64,000 nt of DNA from Marinobacter sp. LV10R510-11A (GTDB lineage Bacteria; Pseudomonadota; Gammaproteobacteria; Pseudomonadales; Oleiphilaceae), in NCBI RefSeq assembly GCF_900215155.1, contig NZ_LT907980.1, forward strand, positions 4,216,001 through 4,280,000, given 5' to 3'. The position numbers and the translations under genes are program-made. Shown here in pieces: positions 15,520 to 27,748 of this stretch. Every line of letters starts with the position of its first letter. Positions within the stretch are counted from its first letter, which is position 1. The notes beneath the pieces are model-generated. The model saw nothing but the letters and a program-made list of their open reading frames with translations, was not told the origin of the DNA and searched no databases.

Positions 15520-16488
15520 ATGGGCTTATTACAAAAGGGTGAATGGGTTGACCAGTGGTACGACACCGACAATAGCGGTGGTGAATTTCGCCGTCAGGAC
15601 AGTCGCTTCAGAAATTGGCTGACACCCGATGGCAAAGCCGGCCCAAACGGGGAACCCGGCTTTAAAGCCGAGAAAGACCGCTACCATTTGTATGTGTCAC
15701 TGGCTTGCCCTTGGGCACACCGCGCACTGATTTTTCGCCAGATAAAGCAGTTGCAAGATTATATTGACGTCACCGTGGTCGACCCGGTGATGCTGGAAAA
15801 TGGCTGGGAAATGAATGACCCGCTATACGGGTTGGACTTTTTGTATCAACTGTATTTAAGGGCGGATTCTGGCTATGAGGGCCGCGTTACGGTGCCGGCT
15901 TTATGGGACAAGCAAACACAGACCATTGTCAGCAATGAGTCTTCAGAGATTATCCGTATGTTCAATACGGCGTTTAATCATTTAACGGGCAACACCGCAG
16001 ATTACTACCCTGATACGTTACACGAGCGGATCAACGCCCTGAATGACCGTATCTACGACACCATCAACAACGGCGTTTATCGAGCCGGTTTCGCCACTAC
16101 CCAAGAAGCCTATGAAAAGGCCTACCACAGCGTGTTCGATTCGTTGGATTGGGTCGAGAGCTTGTTAGTCCAGCAGCGCTATCTGGCGGGCGGGCAGTTG
16201 ACGGAAGCGGATTGGCGTTTATTTACCACCTTGATTCGTTTCGATGCGGTGTATTTCGGCCACTTTAAAACCAACCGTCAGTTGCTGGCCGATTATCCGG
16301 CGATTAGTGGGTATGTGCGCGAGCTATACCAGATACCTGGCGTCGCTGACACCGTCAGCTTTGAGCATATCAAAACGCACTATTACGGGAGCCACCTGAT
16401 GATCAATCCCACCGGGATAATTCCCGTGGGCCCAGCACAGGATTTTACCGCGGCCCATGGCCGAGAAGGGCTTGGAGAAAACCCATGA
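15520..16488 (+). CDS. yqjG: Glutathionyl-hydroquinone reductase (xi-class GST, YqjG-like)
   Basis: A 322-aa Omega/xi-class glutathione transferase. The catalytic cysteine lies in SLACPWAHR (around residue 62-70). The N-terminal extension with WVDQWYDTDNSGGEFRRQDSRFRNW, the TVPALWDK and SNESSEI thioredoxin-fold motifs, and an all-helical C-terminus (GVYRAGFATTQEAYE) are typical of YqjG/EcmB enzymes. These reduce glutathionyl-hydroquinones in the cytoplasm. GAGGAG precedes the ATG by 8 bases. Its stop overlaps the pirin start (ATGA), so the two are translated together. Confidence 0.92.
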   Translation: MGLLQKGEWVDQWYDTDNSGGEFRRQDSRFRNWLTPDGKAGPNGEPGFKAEKDRYHLYVSLACPWAHRALIFRQIKQLQDYIDVTVVDPVMLENGWEMNDPLYGLDFLYQLYLRADSGYEGRVTVPALWDKQTQTIVSNESSEIIRMFNTAFNHLTGNTADYYPDTLHERINALNDRIYDTINNGVYRAGFATTQEAYEKAYHSVFDSLDWVESLLVQQRYLAGGQLTEADWRLFTTLIRFDAVYFGHFKTNRQLLADYPAISGYVRELYQIPGVADTVSFEHIKTHYYGSHLMINPTGIIPVGPAQDFTAAHGREGLGENP

Positions 16489-20862: not shown

Positions 20863-20943
20863 AGCCATGATGAGGTGGCCAGAGAGATTGAAGGCTCGAA
20901 GCTTGAAAGGCGTATGCAGAAAAACCAGCCACAGGAGAACTCT

Positions 20944-21600
20944 GTGAAGAAAACGATGCTTGCATTAACAGTGACGACCATGGGCCTTGCCGGTTGTATG
21001 ACGTATGACCCATACACCGATGAAGAGAAAACCTCGAGTGCCACGAAGGGCAGCATTGTCGGCGCTATCAGTGGTGCAGCCATAGGCGCTGCAACCTCAA
21101 GCAAAAGTGACCGTGGTAAAGGCGCACTGATCGGTGCGGCAGGCGGTGCAGCCGTTGGTGGCGGCATTGGCTATTATATGGATCGGCAAGAAGCCCAGCT
21201 GAGACATAAGCTGAAGGGTACAGGTGTCCGGGTTGTTCGTAACGGGGATGAAATAGAACTCGTCATGCCTGGGAACATCACGTTCGAGTTGGATCAAACA
21301 TCAATTCGCCCGGGTTTCACAGAGACCTTAGAATCGGTGTCGTTGGTGGTGAAAGAGTTCGAAAAAACCGCGATTCAGATCGAGGGTCATACAGACAGTT
21401 CCGGCGCTGATAACTATAACCAGTTGCTGAGTGAGCGCCGTGCGGGCACCGTGCGGGACTTCCTGCTTAATCAGGGTATTGAGCCTAAGCGCACCCGTGC
21501 AGTGGGATACGGCGAGCGTTATCCTATCGCTTCTAACGATAACGCGGGTGGCCGTGAGCAGAATCGTCGTGTTGAGCTTACGTTGATCCCTACGAAGTAG
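20944..21600 (+). CDS. OmpA-family lipoprotein with glycine zipper (YiaD-like)
   Basis: A 218-aa outer-membrane lipoprotein. The leader is VKKTMLALTVTTMGLAGC (lipobox LAGC), followed by a glycine-zipper segment rich in GAxxGAAxG (about residues 40-85) and a C-terminal OmpA/peptidoglycan-binding domain (IEGHTDSSGADNYNQLLSERR ... NRRVELTL). I chose the GTG at 20944 because CAGGAG lies 6 bases upstream and it places the signal peptide at the N-terminus; the frame is open from 20875. Its transcript would originally have ended at a terminator now split by the transposon that follows. Confidence 0.93.
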   Translation: MKKTMLALTVTTMGLAGCMTYDPYTDEEKTSSATKGSIVGAISGAAIGAATSSKSDRGKGALIGAAGGAAVGGGIGYYMDRQEAQLRHKLKGTGVRVVRNGDEIELVMPGNITFELDQTSIRPGFTETLESVSLVVKEFEKTAIQIEGHTDSSGADNYNQLLSERRAGTVRDFLLNQGIEPKRTRAVGYGERYPIASNDNAGGREQNRRVELTLIPTK

Positions 21601-21638
21601 GTTGAAACTAATCTGAAGTCCCGGCTTTGTCCGGGCAT

Positions 21639-21659
21639 AAAAAAACCGGAGCTGCGTGC
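21639..21659. terminator. Left half of split bidirectional terminator, with target duplication
   Basis: Seven A, then CCGGA, then GCTGCGTGC. The matching right half (GCTGCGTGC, TCCGG, seven T) is at 26481-26501. Joined with one GCTGCGTGC, they rebuild a hairpin with a 7-bp CCGGAGC/GCTCCGG stem, TGCGT loop and A/T tails, a terminator for both the ompA-like gene and serA. As it stands, this half cannot fold. Confidence 0.85.
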
Positions 21660-21687
21660 CAAGCCATTCACCTTAAGTGTGGCTGAG
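21660..21687 (+). repeat. Left terminal inverted repeat of the outer transposon
   Basis: A 28-bp repeat starting CAAGCCATTCACC, matching the complement of 26453-26480 except for one C/T difference at position 10. Confidence 0.88.
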
Positions 21688-21705
21688 GTTACTGACAAAA
21701 CCGCT

Positions 21706-22792
21706 AGAAGCGCCTATACTACTGTATATACAGGGCGCTGTTGTGCTTACATGTTGGTAGGCTATTCCAAACTGGGAATCGCCCCCCGAACCCAAGCAAC
21801 ATCTTGAAACTCCTCCCTTTCATCCATAAAGCGGAACCACGCCAGGTAATTGTCCACGTGGGCCGTTCCGACACCGTGGAAGCGCTTAAGCCAACCCTTC
21901 CAGCGTTGGGTAAAATTGTTCAGGGTCTGGATGTGGTAAACACCCTCAACAACCCGGCTGTTATCCTTCGCAATCAATCGCTTATGCTCAAGATGGTCAA
22001 ACGTCTTCACCATTTCTACATAGGAAAGGTTGCCATCTGTGCACAAGACGGAGTTCTCGCGGATCACTGGGGCCAAGGCTGCGATAATTTCCTCCTTAGT
22101 GTCGTGCTCTAGAACATGGTGGGTAATGTGTCCGGAGCGATCCAGCGCCAATGCGATGGGCACCAGAGTCACCTTACCGCCCCCACGTTTACGGGCTGGC
22201 CGAGGCATCGTCTTTTTTCCCTTGAAGGACTCCGGCAGGAATGTCTCGTCGGCCTCGATGATGCCGGACAACGACGTAGCCTTATGATCTCTGGGACTGC
22301 TTAGAAAGGCATGACGCCAGCGAAAGGCCGTGCGTAGGCTGACACCGGTCACCTTGGCCGCTTTGCGTAGGGATAGGCCATAGCGCATCGTTTCCACATA
22401 CTCTAGCCAGAGCTCTTCTTTACGCATGCGGTACAGCGGGCTACCCACCAGCGCGTTGAAGGTCTTTGCGCAACGTTTACAGCGGTAGCGCTGGCGCTCA
22501 TTCCCGGATGATCCCCAGCGAATAAACATCTTGGACTGGCAATAAGGGCACTGGGTAACCGCCTCTTCACTGGCCGTCAGCGTCTCGTAAACAGCATCCA
22601 GTTTGACGCGTTTTTCAATATGATGCCGTAGCCTTTTCAACTGTGGGGTGGTGAAGTCAGGAACGCGGCGTAGAAGGTCGTTGAAATCATCGTGCTGCAC
22701 GGTAGCCTCCAAATACATTCAGGTATGGAGTAAGTGTAGACCACCAACAGATAAGCACAACAGCGCCATATACAGACAGTATAGGCGCTTCT
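21706..22792. mobile_element. IS1595-family insertion sequence
   Basis: A 1087-bp element with imperfect inverted ends of about 45 bp. Both begin AGAAGCGCCTATACT and share GGCGCTGTTGTGCTTA. The outermost bases are 21706 and 22792. It contains one transposase gene on the minus strand. No 8-bp target duplication is visible: flanks read AAACCGCT and TTTTATGG. It ends five bases before the start codon of the broken DDE gene. Confidence 0.88.
21762..22700 (-). CDS. IS1595-family transposase (ISXO2-like DDE domain)
   Basis: An intact transposase of about 312 aa. An N-terminal zinc ribbon (CPYCQSKMFIRWG ... YRCKRCAKTF) is followed by a helix-turn-helix (LSLRKAAKVTGVSLRTAFRWRHAF) and an ISXO2-type catalytic domain. 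The acid residues lie in IEADETF and LCTDGN, with the late VYHIQTLNN and RFHGVGTAHVDNYLAWF block. I chose the GTG at 22700 over the ATG at 22718, because GGAGG sits 5 bases before the GTG and lies inside the longer version. Confidence 0.92.
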   Translation of the reverse strand: MQHDDFNDLLRRVPDFTTPQLKRLRHHIEKRVKLDAVYETLTASEEAVTQCPYCQSKMFIRWGSSGNERQRYRCKRCAKTFNALVGSPLYRMRKEELWLEYVETMRYGLSLRKAAKVTGVSLRTAFRWRHAFLSSPRDHKATSLSGIIEADETFLPESFKGKKTMPRPARKRGGGKVTLVPIALALDRSGHITHHVLEHDTKEEIIAALAPVIRENSVLCTDGNLSYVEMVKTFDHLEHKRLIAKDNSRVVEGVYHIQTLNNFTQRWKGWLKRFHGVGTAHVDNYLAWFRFMDEREEFQDVAWVRGAIPSLE

Positions 22793-23601
22793 TTTTATGG
22801 GAAAGAAATCTTTCCAGAATAAACCGCCCCGCATTCCCTTCCCGTTCGAAGGTATTCAAGTCAATGGATGTCGAAATCCGACGTGTGAGAATTTTTTAAC
22901 GCTTAGTCCGATCAAAAATATTGATGGATGTGAAGGGGGTTTTCCTGAAGCCTTCCAGAGAGGCGGCGGATCCTATCGTCTATCTGGAAGGGGTAAAGCC
23001 AAGGCATCTCTGATTTGTGAGATTTGCTCCAAGAAAAAAGCTCTGGGTGAAGATGTTAATGCTGTATCAACCGCTCTAAAGAGTAATCAGGCTGTCCACG
23101 AAGAGCTTAGTAGGATATCGAGCCACCTAGATCCAAAATCAATTATCTGCCCAAACTCAAAATGCTCAAGCAATATGGATAAAAAGCCTATTTCCGTCAA
23201 AAAGAATGGCAAAACGACTAGCGGAAACCAAAGGTATATTTGCCTTCACTGTCGGAAGAGTTTTTGTGGTAAACCGAAGGCTCGCAAGCACTCCAAGCCT
23301 CATTTAAACAGGTTACTATTCAAGCTCCTGGTCAACAAACAACCGATCAACCGTATTGCTGATGTTTTGGATATTTCAGAAAAAACGGTTTACGACAAAA
23401 TCAGATTTATTCATCGCCAGTGTTTATCGTTTGTTTCTGAGCGAGAGAGAAGACTTGAGAGCAGAGTTTTTGAGCGATTTTATCTTTCAACAGACCGTCA
23501 AGTTCTGATGACCAACTGGACTCAACCCCCTCTGCCAGCCTAGATGTCCAGTTGGCGATTTCGCCTGAATTCATGTCAGATTGGGCGGTATGAGAGTAGT
23601 C

Positions 23602-24108
23602 ATGCCACGTTATTCCGAGGAACGTAAAGCGGCCGTGTTGAAGAAGTTGTTACCTCCGCAGAACCGCAGTGTGGTGTCGGTGGCCGCAAAGGAAGGCATA
23701 TCCGAAGTGACTCTGTACAATTGGTTAAAACAGTGTCGACAACAAGGGGTGCCTGTGCCGGGTTATCGTAATGCTGGAGACGATGGGTCTCCTGATGCCA
23801 AGTTAGCCGTCGTGATCGAAACGGCGTCTATGTCCGAAGCTGAACTGAGTGCGTATTGCCGCCAGAAAGGTCTGTATCCCGAGCAGGTACAACGCTGGAA
23901 AGACGCCTGCCTACACGGTGCCGGTCTGCAAGAAGGGCAAGGGAAAGCCGCTCAGAAGCAGCAGCGTGATGCCCGTAAGACCATCAAGAAGCTGCAAGCG
24001 GAAGTGCGCCGTAAGGATCGGGTTCTGGCAGAAACGACCTCATTGTTGGTGCTGTCAAAAAAGCTCGAAGCCTTGTACGGCGAGGACCCGGACAGCGAGG
24101 ACAGTTAA
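23602..24108 (+). CDS. IS3-family transposase OrfA
   Basis: A DNA-binding protein of about 168 aa. It has two helix-turn-helix-like units: RSVVSVAAKEGISEVTLYNWLKQ near the start and AELSAYCRQKGLYPEQVQRWKDA in the middle. A leucine-rich coiled-coil C-terminus (KTIKKLQAEVRRKDRVLAETTSLLV) is typical of IS3 OrfA dimerisation. I start it at MPRYSEERK; an ATG 12 bp earlier is also possible. It ends with a slippery A_AAA_AAG for frameshifting into OrfB. Confidence 0.9.
   Translation: MPRYSEERKAAVLKKLLPPQNRSVVSVAAKEGISEVTLYNWLKQCRQQGVPVPGYRNAGDDGSPDAKLAVVIETASMSEAELSAYCRQKGLYPEQVQRWKDACLHGAGLQEGQGKAAQKQQRDARKTIKKLQAEVRRKDRVLAETTSLLVLSKKLEALYGEDPDSEDS
24057..24063 (+). other. Programmed -1 frameshift site between OrfA and OrfB
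   Basis: A_AAA_AAG in the OrfA frame (TCA AAA AAG, residues S-K-K). Slippage by -1 continues through 24108 into the OrfB frame without a stop, giving an OrfAB fusion as in other IS3 elements. Confidence 0.85.
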
Positions 24109-25169
24109 CACCGCTGACCGAACGTACAAGGCTTTTAAACGACTATGACGAAGCTGTCGCCAGTGGCGCAGCCCGGTACAAGGCGGCCGACTTGATGGAG
24201 CTGAGTCAGCGCACGTTGAAGCGCTGGCGACAGGCTAATGGCGCTGTAGCGGAAGATCAACGCCCGCAAGCGGAGCGCGTTGTGCAGCCACACCAGCTCA
24301 CTCACGCTGAAGAAGCGGCCATTCTAGACACCTGCAATGAACGGGAGTACCAGAGCTTGCCACCGTCCCAGATCGTGCCTCGACTGGCTGATAAAGGGCT
24401 TTACCTGGCCTCTGAGTCCTCATTCTACCGAGTGCTCAAAAAGTACCAGCAAGTGAATCATCGGGGCCGCATGAAACCGCCGCGCAAGGTCCCTGAGCCC
24501 ACCAGCTTTACCGCCACAGGCCCGAACCAGGTGTGGAGCTGGGACATCAGCTATTGCCCCTCAGAGGTGCGCGGTCAGCACTGGTATCTGTACCTGATCA
24601 TGGACATCTACAGTCGCAAAATCGTGGCGTGGGAAATCCACGAATCAGAGTCTGGCGAGCTTGCCAAAAAGCTCATTGATCGAGCTCTGTTACGCGAGAG
24701 ATGTTGGCAAAACCCACCGGTGCTGCACTCAGATAACGGCGCGCCGATGACGTCCTACACGCTGAAAGCGCGGCTGGCAGACCTGGGTATGCTGATGTCT
24801 CACAGCCGACCCAGAGTAAGCAACGACAACCCTTACTCAGAGTCGTTGTTCAAGACGCTAAAGTACTGTCCAAAATGGCCAGCCAAGGGCTTTTCATCAC
24901 TAACGGCGGTGCGCAAATGGATGCTGTTGTTCGAGCAGGCTTACAACGAAGAGCACCTGCACAGCGGCATCAACTTCGTGACGCCCGCACAACGGCACCA
25001 GGGTGTTGATGCAGAGTTGTTAGCCAAACGTGAAGCGGTTTATGAACGAGCAAAGAGTCTGAATCCTAGGCGTTGGTCTGGTGATACTCGAAACTGGGCA
25101 GTCGCCGGAGCCGTATCCCTCAACCCTGGAAAATTGCAGGAAATTGAGCGCAATAAACAGGCTGCTTAA
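24064..25169 (+). CDS. IS3-family transposase OrfB (expressed as OrfAB by frameshift)
   Basis: The integrase-like catalytic part. From the slip site the -1 frame reads on through TPLTERTRLLNDYDEAVASGAARYKAADLMELSQRTLKRW into an rve domain. The DDE triad is D in SWDISYCP, D in HSDNGAP and E in NPYSESLFKTLKY, with the downstream K/R and NEEHLHSGINFVTP. An independent start at 24192-24197 is possible but lacks a clear ribosome site. The catalytic core appears intact, so the element may still be mobile. Confidence 0.9.
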
Positions 25170-26400
25170 ACGCAGCTATATGGACAACTGGGTTGCAAAT
25201 CACCGTCAACGAGGTGACAAAAGGAATTGCGACCTCTACGGAATTGCCACGGCATGCTTGAACTCAGGCTACGTTTTCGCTTTCAACTTTAATTACGATG
25301 GCTCTGTGGACTCCAGTTTGGCAGAGCGGGACTCAGTTGATAGTGGTGATCACGAAAGACCAAAACACCACCGAAAACACGCTAGAGTCTGGTTGAGCGA
25401 GGAGTTCAATGACGCTGTAAAGAATCGCTTACCTAGAGAGAAGTTACCATATGCCGGAAATCTTAGAGATGAAATTCAGATCAGAGCTCTGATCGAAAAA
25501 AGCTCTAATGTTCCCGATTCGTCGGAGAACATCGATCAAACAAAAAGTCTTCCTAATCGCGGTGCCTTGGTTCATAACGAATACACCATGCTGGCTCACT
25601 TCTTTTTACTGAAACGGTTTTTCAGGAGCACAGGGAAAACTCGCTTCTTTCTGGATCTGGATAGCGGGATGAAGACGGCCTATATTTCTGCGTTTCGTGA
25701 GGAAATTGGAGAAGGCCGATCCGATGGGTTCTTAGTTAGGGCTTCGAAAAATAAAACAAATGATGAGAAAGAAAAGCTGGTAGCAAATTTCAAACGCATG
25801 GTTTCCAAAATGTCAGGAACCCCAGTCAAACAGCTGACCTTCAAAATCCTAATGGATGTAACTAACGGAATTATCGCGGAGCGTTTAAAGAAACCCATTA
25901 AGGTTCCGAACTCGCCTGAGTTTTGGATTGAGCATCCATGGGTGTCCAAGGCAGAGCCGGAGAAAATGGTGGCTGCGGTGACGAATGTGTCTAGGTACGA
26001 CATTCTGCACCAGGCCAACCTCTACCGCATGGTGACCCTAGCTCCAGTAGATCGCTTTTTTATGAATATCCGCAGGATGTCTATGTACTTTGAAAGGCCA
26101 TTCCAGTCAGGCACCGGGATGGGGCGTATCTGGCACGGATACTCTGCATATAACCCTGAGATGTACACCATAGTGGGTGACATATTCAGGATTCATTACA
26201 ACTACTGCACAAGATCAAAGAAAAAGGACACACCCGCCATGAAACTGGGGCTTGCAAAAGCCCCAGTTACTGTCGAGAAAATCATTTATTACAATCGATA
26301 TGCTGGATAGAGTTGACCGGCTAATTCAAGCCAAAAGCTCAGGCTTTTTTCGTTGGGAAGCAGGGATGCCAAAACGTCTGCGTTCAGAAATTTTGAATGA

Positions 26401-26436
26401 AAAAAAGCCAGTGATTTTTGGTCACTGGCTTTTCTT
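26401..26436. terminator. Terminator downstream of the transposase-like gene
   Basis: An 8-bp stem GCCAGTGA/TCACTGGC (26407-26414 and 26422-26429) with A-run before and T-run after, so it can act in both directions. It lies 96 bp after the DDE gene and inside the outer transposon. Confidence 0.85.
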
Positions 26437-26452
26437 ACTTGGCTTGCCCAAG

Positions 26453-26480
26453 CTCAGCCACACTTAAGGTAAATGGCTTG
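26453..26480 (-). repeat. Right terminal inverted repeat of the outer transposon
   Basis: The complement reads CAAGCCATTTACC and ends GTGTGGCTGAG, matching 21660-21687 at 27 of 28 positions. It is followed directly by the second copy of GCTGCGTGC. Confidence 0.88.
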
Positions 26481-26501
26481 GCTGCGTGCTCCGGTTTTTT
26501 T
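26481..26501. terminator. Right half of split bidirectional terminator, with target duplication
   Basis: GCTGCGTGC, then TCCGG and seven T. It completes the hairpin begun at 21639-21659. The serA transcript reads through this half and would now depend on the terminator at 26401-26436. Confidence 0.85.
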
Positions 26502-26518
26502 ATGAGAACAGGCGTCCC

Positions 26519-27748
26519 TTAAAACAGCACGCGGGCGCGGATAGTGCCTTTTACCTTGAGCAGCTTCTCTAGGGCAAGTTCACCATAGGCCTTGTCTACA
26601 TCAATCACTACGTAACCAATGTCTTGCCTGGTCTGCAGGTACTGTCCGCAAACGTTGATGCCGTTCTGGGAGAACACCTGGTTGATTTCAGACATCACAC
26701 CCGGCACGTTCTCGTGAATGTGCAGTATGCGGTGCTGATCTGGGTGAGCAGGCAGCGCCACCTCTGGGAAGTTCACAGAAGACACAGACGTGCCGTTATC
26801 GCTGTACATAGCCAGCTTCTCAGCCACTTCACGCCCGATGTTTTCTTGGGCTTCAATGGTGGAGCCGCCTACGTGCGGGGTCAGAATCACGTTGTCGAAT
26901 TCCCGCAACGGAGACACAAACTCTTCGTCGTTGGACTTAGGCTCAACTGGGAACACATCAATGGCGGCGCCCAGCAGCTTGCCGCTCTTCAGCGTTTCTG
27001 CCAGAGCTTCAATATCAACAACCGTGCCCCGTGAGGCGTTCATCAGAATAGAGCCTGGCTTCATCTGCGCCAGTTGCTCTGCTTTGAACATGTACTTAGT
27101 GGCCGCTGTTTCTGGAACGTGCAGGCTCACAACATCTGAGATGTTGAGTAGCTCTTGCATGGAGCCCACCTGGGTCGCGTTGCCGATAGGCAACTTGGAA
27201 ACCACATCGTAGAAATACACGTCCATGCCCAGGCCTTCAGCCAGAACACTAAACTGAGTACCTATGTTGCCATAGCCGATGATGCCCAGCTTTTTACCGC
27301 GAATCTCGTAGCTGTCTTTGGCTGATTTTTGCCATCCACCGCGATGCGCCTTGGCGTTCTTCTCGGGAACACCGCGCAGCAGCAAGATAGCCTGCGCCAG
27401 CACCAATTCAGCAACACTGCGAGTGTTGGAAAATGGAGCGTTGAATACGGCGATGCCACGACGAGTTGCAGCCTGCAGGTCAACCTGGTTGGTACCTATG
27501 CAGAAACAACCCACGGCAACCAGTTTTTTAGCGGCCTCGAATACTTTCTCGGTCAACTGAGTGCGGGAGCGAAGGCCGACAAAGTGCGCATCGGCAATCT
27601 TCTCGATAAGGTCTTCCTCGGTCAGAGAGTGACTGAGGTACTCAATGTTGGTGTAGCCTGCAGCATTCAGGGTGTCTAGCGCGGATTGGTGCACGCCTTC
27701 CAGCAGCAGAATCCGGATTTTGCTCTTTTCGAGAGACGTCGTTGACAT
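26519..27748 (-). CDS. serA: D-3-phosphoglycerate dehydrogenase
   Basis: The first enzyme of serine synthesis: it oxidises 3-phosphoglycerate with NAD. At 409 aa it matches the E. coli-type enzyme. The NAD-binding motif is IGYGNIGTQ (Rossmann, about 156-164); catalytic-domain motifs are CFCIGTNQVDL, NASRGTVVD and LTPHVGGSTIEAQ. An ACT domain at the C-terminus (ILHIHENVPGVMSEINQVF) suggests serine feedback inhibition. It is divergent from a D-2-hydroxyglutarate dehydrogenase, the arrangement known from Pseudomonas. Confidence 0.97.
   Translation of the reverse strand: MSTTSLEKSKIRILLLEGVHQSALDTLNAAGYTNIEYLSHSLTEEDLIEKIADAHFVGLRSRTQLTEKVFEAAKKLVAVGCFCIGTNQVDLQAATRRGIAVFNAPFSNTRSVAELVLAQAILLLRGVPEKNAKAHRGGWQKSAKDSYEIRGKKLGIIGYGNIGTQFSVLAEGLGMDVYFYDVVSKLPIGNATQVGSMQELLNISDVVSLHVPETAATKYMFKAEQLAQMKPGSILMNASRGTVVDIEALAETLKSGKLLGAAIDVFPVEPKSNDEEFVSPLREFDNVILTPHVGGSTIEAQENIGREVAEKLAMYSDNGTSVSSVNFPEVALPAHPDQHRILHIHENVPGVMSEINQVFSQNGINVCGQYLQTRQDIGYVVIDVDKAYGELALEKLLKVKGTIRARVLF

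Follow-up and report, generated by a model that had tools for sequence, protein, structure and literature searches.

A decayed transposon in a split bidirectional terminator points to a DDE family that prefers intrinsic terminators as targets

Introduction

Does a transposon lying in the loop of a transcription terminator owe its position to chance, or does its family choose such places? The question is raised by a 4,821-bp element (positions 21660-26480, terminal inverted repeats included) in a 64,000-nucleotide stretch, hereafter the window, of the single-contig, 4.44-Mb genome of Marinobacter sp. LV10R510-11A (contig NZ_LT907980.1, positions 4,216,001-4,280,000). The element separates the two halves of a bidirectional terminator between convergent ompA-like and serA-like genes, and a sequence-only reading of the window had proposed that insertion into terminator loops, harming no gene, may be its targeting rule. 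Judging from the sequences of its relatives, the element is very probably a decayed copy of a DDE transposon family that chooses intrinsic terminators, preferably bidirectional ones, and places its staggered cut to either side of the hairpin's dyad axis.

Results

By direct reading and by script, the left inverted repeat begins at 21660 (CAAGCCATTCACCTTAAGTGTGGC...) and the right one ends at 26480. Their outer 24 bases agree at 23 positions, and the 9-bp duplication GCTGCGTGC lies directly outside the element on either side (21651-21659 and 26481-26489), just as the sequence-only reading had claimed. Its further claim, that removal of the element restores a hairpin, was borne out as well: the flanks joined with a single duplicate give CATAAAAAAACCGGAGC-TGCGT-GCTCCGGTTTTTTTATG, a perfect 17-bp stem with A7 and T7 tails. 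As RNA, this hairpin folds at -25.4 kcal/mol, a stability reached by none of 200 shuffled sequences, and its stem score is attained in about 0.01% of 23,700 random host-flank windows, which rules out a chance hairpin at the insertion site. The interval previously assigned to the transposon, 21639-26501, corresponds to the interrupted terminator, with the A7 and T7 tails as its limits; the element proper is confined to the coordinates given above, with the left half of the terminator (A7, CCGGAGC, the loop TGCGT and GC) at 21639-21659 and the right half, up to T7, at 26481-26501. The split terminator is absent from the output of a simple consensus scan of 21000-27200, unsurprisingly, since its halves are 4.8 kb apart.

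If the terminator preceded the insertion, relatives should show it intact. The serA side was matched in 120 of 123 genomes of the genus, and the comparison covered 30 loci, one of them the home locus, so that 29 relatives were read of the 119 other matching genomes. When any stem scoring 9 or more with a run of four or more A or T is counted as a tailed hairpin, all 29 carry an uninterrupted one no more than 110 nt from the end of serA. Sixteen of these hairpins share the arms CCGGAGC/GCTCCGG, and the ompA-like gene is found on the other side in 22 relatives within the stretch examined.

To other members of the family we applied a test in which the ends were called without hairpin information, from inverted repeats matching at 16 or more of 24 positions and a duplication of 8-11 bp in which no more than one base differed. 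Ends were found in 47 of 97 loci, 45 of them unique (L101 duplicates L100, and L036 duplicates L081), and 41 were kept after four weak cases had been dropped (L107, L123, L139 and L147, with inverted repeats of 16-17/24 and 8-bp duplications containing one mismatch). The family shows the terminal inverted repeats and fixed-length duplication of DDE-type elements: the duplication is 9 bp long in 24 of the 41, 10 bp in nine and 11 bp in eight, the last also readable as 9 bp if the repeat begins one base earlier, and it is exact in 38. A site was counted as lying on a strong dyad if an inverted repeat centred within 2.5 nt of the duplication centre reached at least the 99th percentile of the 23,700 random host windows. 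This holds for 32 of the 41 sites, the dyad centre coinciding with that of the duplication in 15, lying half a base away in 14 and one base away in three; the sites that pass include every one of the five home-genome copies that have both ends and a duplication. Longer sequence later resolved three copies (12.0, 9.25 and 4.5 kb; transposase about 30% identical) that share one genome of the same order, and all of them lie in tailed hairpins. Combined, 35 of 44 sites fall on a strong dyad, compared with 1.05% of 15,088 windows 25-200 nt away. Ten further regions yielded four with ends, of which L298 (0.5 nt off centre) and L292 (2.5 nt, at the limit of tolerance) pass while L293 and L295 fail; the six without ends are L294, L296, L297, L299, L300 and L301, L299 having half a terminator at its single visible end. 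L288-L291 were left out as loci already counted. Overall, 37 of 48 insertion sites lie on a strong dyad, including five of the seven in later-resolved elements. The proposals that the ompA-serA junction would be intact in relatives, that other copies would carry 9-bp duplications centred on terminator loops, and that this reflects a targeting rule are thus supported, the duplications measuring 9-11 bp. One refinement is that, with 11 exceptions, the rule is a strong preference rather than an absolute one.

These exceptions, together with some further observations, weigh against terminator targeting. The failing sites are L073, L081, L082, L084, L098, L099, L100, L037, L040, L293 and L295. The tailed hairpin at L037 misses the centre by 3.5 nt. 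Weak repeats with tails are present at L073 and L081, a short hairpin lacking tails at L082 and a weak hairpin at L100; no convincing hairpin is seen at L040, L084, L098, L099, L293 or L295. Fifty of the 97 loci were at first without ends (owing to contig edges, decay or long cargo), five of them being resolved later. At a second locus for which uninterrupted sites were compared, 10 of 24 relatives have no tailed hairpin.

Five elements with matching terminal inverted repeats and no target duplication (L083, L096, L109, L094 and L041) stand outside these counts. L083 has intact inverted repeats with both halves of one terminator outside them. At L096 the flanking halves apparently come from different terminators, an arrangement that recombination between two copies would produce. 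L109 has a terminator half on one side, L094 and L041 none. In the home genome, three more ends are present at L012:4555-5777 and 15787-15813, two of them with a half-terminator of the GGCTGGCGTTTTTT type on one side and the third not obviously so.

What is recognised at the target? Stem sequences vary among sites, and the rule therefore looks to be one of terminator dyad shape, a stem with A/T tails, rather than of one sequence. Over 36 sites (the 44 minus eight misses), T tracts read outwards start 5 or 6 nt outside the duplication in 35 of 72 arms and are absent from nine, and position 8 is T in 89%. With a tail defined as an A or T run of 4, at least one tail accompanies each of the 30 strong target dyads (score of at least 11) as against 27 of 126 strong host-flank dyads, a comparison that is partly confounded and overstated because the background holds coding DNA, where insertions are selected against. 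Tails on both sides are found in 24 of the 30 targets and in 12 of the 27 tailed background dyads (p 0.007).

Centring on the dyad and the variety of stems would also follow if the transposase recognised any palindrome or cruciform, terminators being simply the commonest strong palindromes outside genes, and L143, a strong dyad with a poor T tract, fits this as well. Such indifference to tails is nevertheless unlikely, if a serious contender, given that 99 of the 126 strong host-flank dyads are tailless, many of them perhaps in genes, whereas none of the 30 targets is. Less probable still is targeting through transcription, in which the transpososome would be drawn to the open bubble, to an RNA polymerase that has paused or to the hairpin in the terminator RNA. 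The targets do resemble functional terminators near gene ends; a directional process, however, requires neither the dyad-symmetric cut nor the over-representation of bidirectional terminators described above. From the preference for symmetric terminators together with the symmetric cut we infer that two-fold symmetric DNA is recognised, and not the direction of transcription.

A third possibility is that insertion is random and only copies in harmless intergenic places survive. Terminators are intergenic and insertion there is mild, and according to crude open reading frame (ORF) calls many of the 41 loci have a neighbouring ORF that ends at a distance of 20-60 bp (neighbours convergent in 14, co-directional in 22, divergent in three and undetermined in two). 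Selection, however, cannot place a duplication centre within 1 nt of the dyad, as in the 32 sites that pass. When the position scored is shifted by 3 nt, 10-11 of the 44 sites still pass, at the larger shifts listed no more than two, and at the listed shifts of 5-20 nt a strong dyad remains in at most one; this refutes selection as the sole cause, and we regard a complete absence of targeting as highly improbable. Finally, the half-hairpins that stand beside most copies have next to no chance of being the element's own ends rather than host DNA, a reading refuted by flanks that vary between copies and match the uninterrupted host site of the relatives.

The insertion parts the two arms, and the host terminator is therefore lost. 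The view that the element harms no gene thus stands only in part: the host terminator is split, and many elements do carry terminators of their own near their ends. Of the 41 elements, 28 have an inward-facing terminator no more than 500 bp from the right end and 16 have one in the left leader. Host flanks, with 101 such terminators in 212 kb counted on both strands, would lead one to expect about five and one; the elements are related by descent, however, so that the counts are not independent and the excess is overstated. In the window, an A/T-tailed hairpin (AAAAGCCAGTGATTTTTGGTCACTGGCTTTT, -18.6 kcal/mol) at 26403-26433 is the right-hand terminator, and the left candidate is a leader hairpin now split by a nested insertion sequence (IS). 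The element's own terminators would replace the lost one, and siting in terminators may let the elements spread without breaking host genes.

The element itself, oriented on the plus strand, is a broken, twice-invaded copy, interrupted by an IS1595-family and an IS3-family IS that the sequence-only reading had not noted. Between the left terminal inverted repeat (CAAGCCATTCACCTTAAGTGTGGCTGA, 21660-21686, plus strand) and the right one (26454-26480, minus strand) lies a single transposase gene in two parts on the plus strand. The 5' part (22797-23525; zinc ribbon and helix-turn-helix) has an intact homologue at L010:1941-3770, and the 3' part (25206-26310) is 97% identical to residues 223-609 of the L010 protein. 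The gene is split by the IS3-family IS (23526-25205, plus strand; duplication TCAA at 23522-23525 and 25206-25209), of which further copies are present in the genome at 722387 (100%), 252142 (98%) and 507470 (85%), in addition to fragments. Directly before the transposase start is the leader hairpin (-29.8 kcal/mol without the nested IS), with its left arm AGAAGCGCCTATACT at 21706-21720 and its right arm AGTATAGGCGCTTCT at 22778-22792, both on the plus strand, the latter followed by a T tract. Its loop holds the IS1595-family IS (21734-22767, minus strand; transposase ORF 21762-22718, NF033547 2.5e-46; termini GGCGCTGTTGTGCTTA), flanked by the 8-bp duplication ATATACAG at 21726-21733 and 22768-22775. 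Outside the element, the ompA-like gene on the left (20875-21600, plus strand; Pfam OmpA 1e-20) stops 38 bp short of the terminator's A tract, and the convergent serA-like gene on the right occupies 26519-27748 on the minus strand (Pfam 2-Hacid_dh_C 1.2e-50).

All five home-genome copies with both ends carry an IS1595-family IS inside their own leader-hairpin loop (21706-22792 in the window; L009, L010, L011, L012, L013). These insertions have 8-bp duplications (ATATACAG; ATATCCAG in L012), occur in either orientation and are of two kinds, L010 differing. A solo copy in L013 is located at ACTGT-TTTTATGT-ACAGT, and this IS1595 group may home to ACTGT-N8-ACAGT palindromes.

The intact transposase is a single DDE-fold protein of about 609 aa, with a zinc ribbon, a helix-turn-helix and an RNase-H-like catalytic domain. 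No transposase family model in Pfam or NCBIfam matches it at its cut-off: the IS1 model NF033558 reaches 48.9 bits against 100 and covers only residues 133-210, and IS256_Zn_var reaches 23.1 of 150 bits. A short IS1/IS1595 zinc domain model (31.3, cut-off 28) and a generic 4-Cys domain model (29.5, cut-off 27) are passed. Six family members tested gave no IS30 model among Pfam and NCBIfam matches at E 0.1. Foldseek ranked no transposase above ISCth4 of the IS256 family. PDB sequence profile matches, among the 60 listed of 222, were zinc-finger proteins hit through the zinc-ribbon region and were set aside as uninformative; Rfam at gathering scores gave no match in L203, L204, L205 or L010. Across 69 sequences, D233 of the L010 protein is invariant and D392, D524 and E538 nearly so; the catalytic residues are perhaps D233, D392 and either D524 or E538, as judged from conservation.

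Within the home genus, matches were found in 9 of 124 genomes, the home genome included, and in wider samples in 16 of 390 genomes of the order, 13 of 369 of the class and 36 of 398 of the phylum, many of them only fragments. Two peptide patterns run against a one-genome-per-species collection gave 250 candidate stretches, 174 of them confirmed, the best 80 corresponding to 79 loci. The hosts among those loci include Gamma-, Beta- and Alphaproteobacteria, Mariprofundus, Geobacter, Desulfobacteraceae and others, with several metagenome bins. Matches were also present in 114 plasmid records, 85 of them from Enterococcus, with about 24% identity and mostly the annotation 'hypothetical protein' among the 60 matches listed. 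The family is thus widespread, and it is without a name in the libraries used. On one Enterococcus plasmid (L041:2334-5605), a relative of 24% identity, named insertion element protein, shares the space between inverted repeats with dfrG; that record shows no duplication. Four genomes of one other genus (L296, L297, L300, L301) have a distant homologue in ORFs of about 500 aa, apparently at one locus, which matches mainly residues 3-410 of the profile. Inverted repeats with a duplication were not found at these four, and the homologue is possibly a domesticated transposase.

The transposase gene is not the only one in many relatives: additional genes, most of them located between the transposase and the right end, bring elements to as much as 12 kb. 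In 24 of the 41 elements an extra ORF measures 150 aa or more, leaving aside the five home copies, in which the extra ORF is the IS1595 transposase. Annotation was by Pfam for 22 of the 24 (all except L073 and L076) and by PADLOC for part. Recognisable defence or toxin-antitoxin genes occur in 11 of the 24, and in 12 elements when L298 is added: a NotI-type nuclease with a D12 methylase (L079), a PstI-type restriction-modification system (L082), type IIG systems (L098; with a specificity subunit in L084 and L106), a methylase (L085), a methylase and, left of the transposase, an Xre/RES pair (L118), an EcoRI-type methylase with a GmrSD/HNH nuclease (L129), YhcG and pPIWI-RE proteins (L143), an ApeA-like domain barely above the Pfam cut-off and with no PADLOC match (L122), an AbiEii domain (L113), and a complete type I system of HsdM, HsdS and HsdR (L298). 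The L298 element, 9.4 kb long and from another genome of the home genus, has a 77% identical transposase, and terminal inverted repeats agreeing at 24 of 24 bases; its duplication, likewise perfect, lies in a tailed hairpin. Other cargo has no known defence role (TauE, GNAT, Sel1, DUF192, an exonuclease), several ORFs match nothing, and the cargo of L081 is an IS21 element and that of L075 partly another IS. A 12-kb relative (L203:910-12900) contains 16 small ORFs on the same strand (91-251 aa) and 15 copies of a repeat (GTCCGCTTTTGGCCCC...), resembling a cassette array. It has no ORF of integrase length, and the four of its ORFs that were searched match other things; its two sister copies in the same genome carry different cargo.

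Discussion

Beyond the choice of target, we cautiously favour a broader picture in which this is a distinct DDE family that reads the two-fold symmetry of almost any bidirectional terminator by shape, whatever the stem, and so would find safe sites genome-wide in every bacterium it enters, spreading restriction-modification and other defence systems (in one genome, a cassette-array-like cargo) while its own terminators replace the one it splits. The transposase would make cuts 9 (or 10) bp apart in the two strands of the target, with the staggered cut placed across the dyad axis of an intrinsic terminator, preferably a bidirectional one. A symmetric pair of subunits, or a cruciform-binding mode, might read the symmetric DNA, probably through its GC-rich arms and the flanking A/T tracts, most of which begin 5-6 bp beyond the cut. 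Insertion at such sites would spare genes, and the inward-facing terminators of the element would take over from the split one.

The target rule of this DDE transposase seems structural rather than sequence-based and holds in hosts as far apart as Marinobacter, Geobacter and Mariprofundus. It suggests, in a form open to test, how mobility and harmlessness can go together in a transposon, and the family provides a route for complete restriction-modification systems between genomes; it could also serve as an integration tool that needs no reprogramming to land between genes. A DDE family combining sequence-independent targeting of terminator loops, insulating terminators of its own and defence cargo was not found in searches of an open-licence library, a scope outside which ISfinder and subscription papers lie.

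Among known transposases, ISCth4 of the IS256 family shares 10% identity; no IS256 family model is matched at its cut-off, the generic 4-Cys domain model alone being passed. The zinc ribbon and helix-turn-helix region resembles that of the IS1 family, whose duplication is 9 bp; the IS1 family model, however, has 199 positions compared with 609 aa, and the match stays below its cut-off. Tn7 inserts near the glmS terminator at a single sequence-specific site, read through the gene end by TnsD, whereas this family uses many unrelated terminators. IS1630 of Mycoplasma fermentans, a member of the IS30 family, reportedly targets inverted repeats. Its duplications are 16-26 bp long (PMC3317919). With that length and an IS30-type transposase it differs from the present family, which has another transposase and duplications of 9-10 bp. 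Group IIC introns, whose targets are often terminators or attC sites, are retroelements that make no duplication and insert beside the loop rather than in it. Like the present family they target stem-loop DNA (PMC10190682).

A further parallel in target is with ISs that insert into repetitive extragenic palindromes (REPs), such as ISPsy8, ISRm22, ISPa11 and ISPpu9/10, with insertion exactly at the symmetry axis for ISPsy8 and ISRm22 (PMC1525189). Both groups insert at palindrome axes, and palindrome-axis insertion in itself is therefore already known. Each REP-targeting IS uses one conserved repeat family and makes duplications of 0-6 bp; the family described here has no single conserved palindromic repeat as its target, its stems varying from site to site, and inserts into varied tailed terminators with duplications of 9-10 bp.

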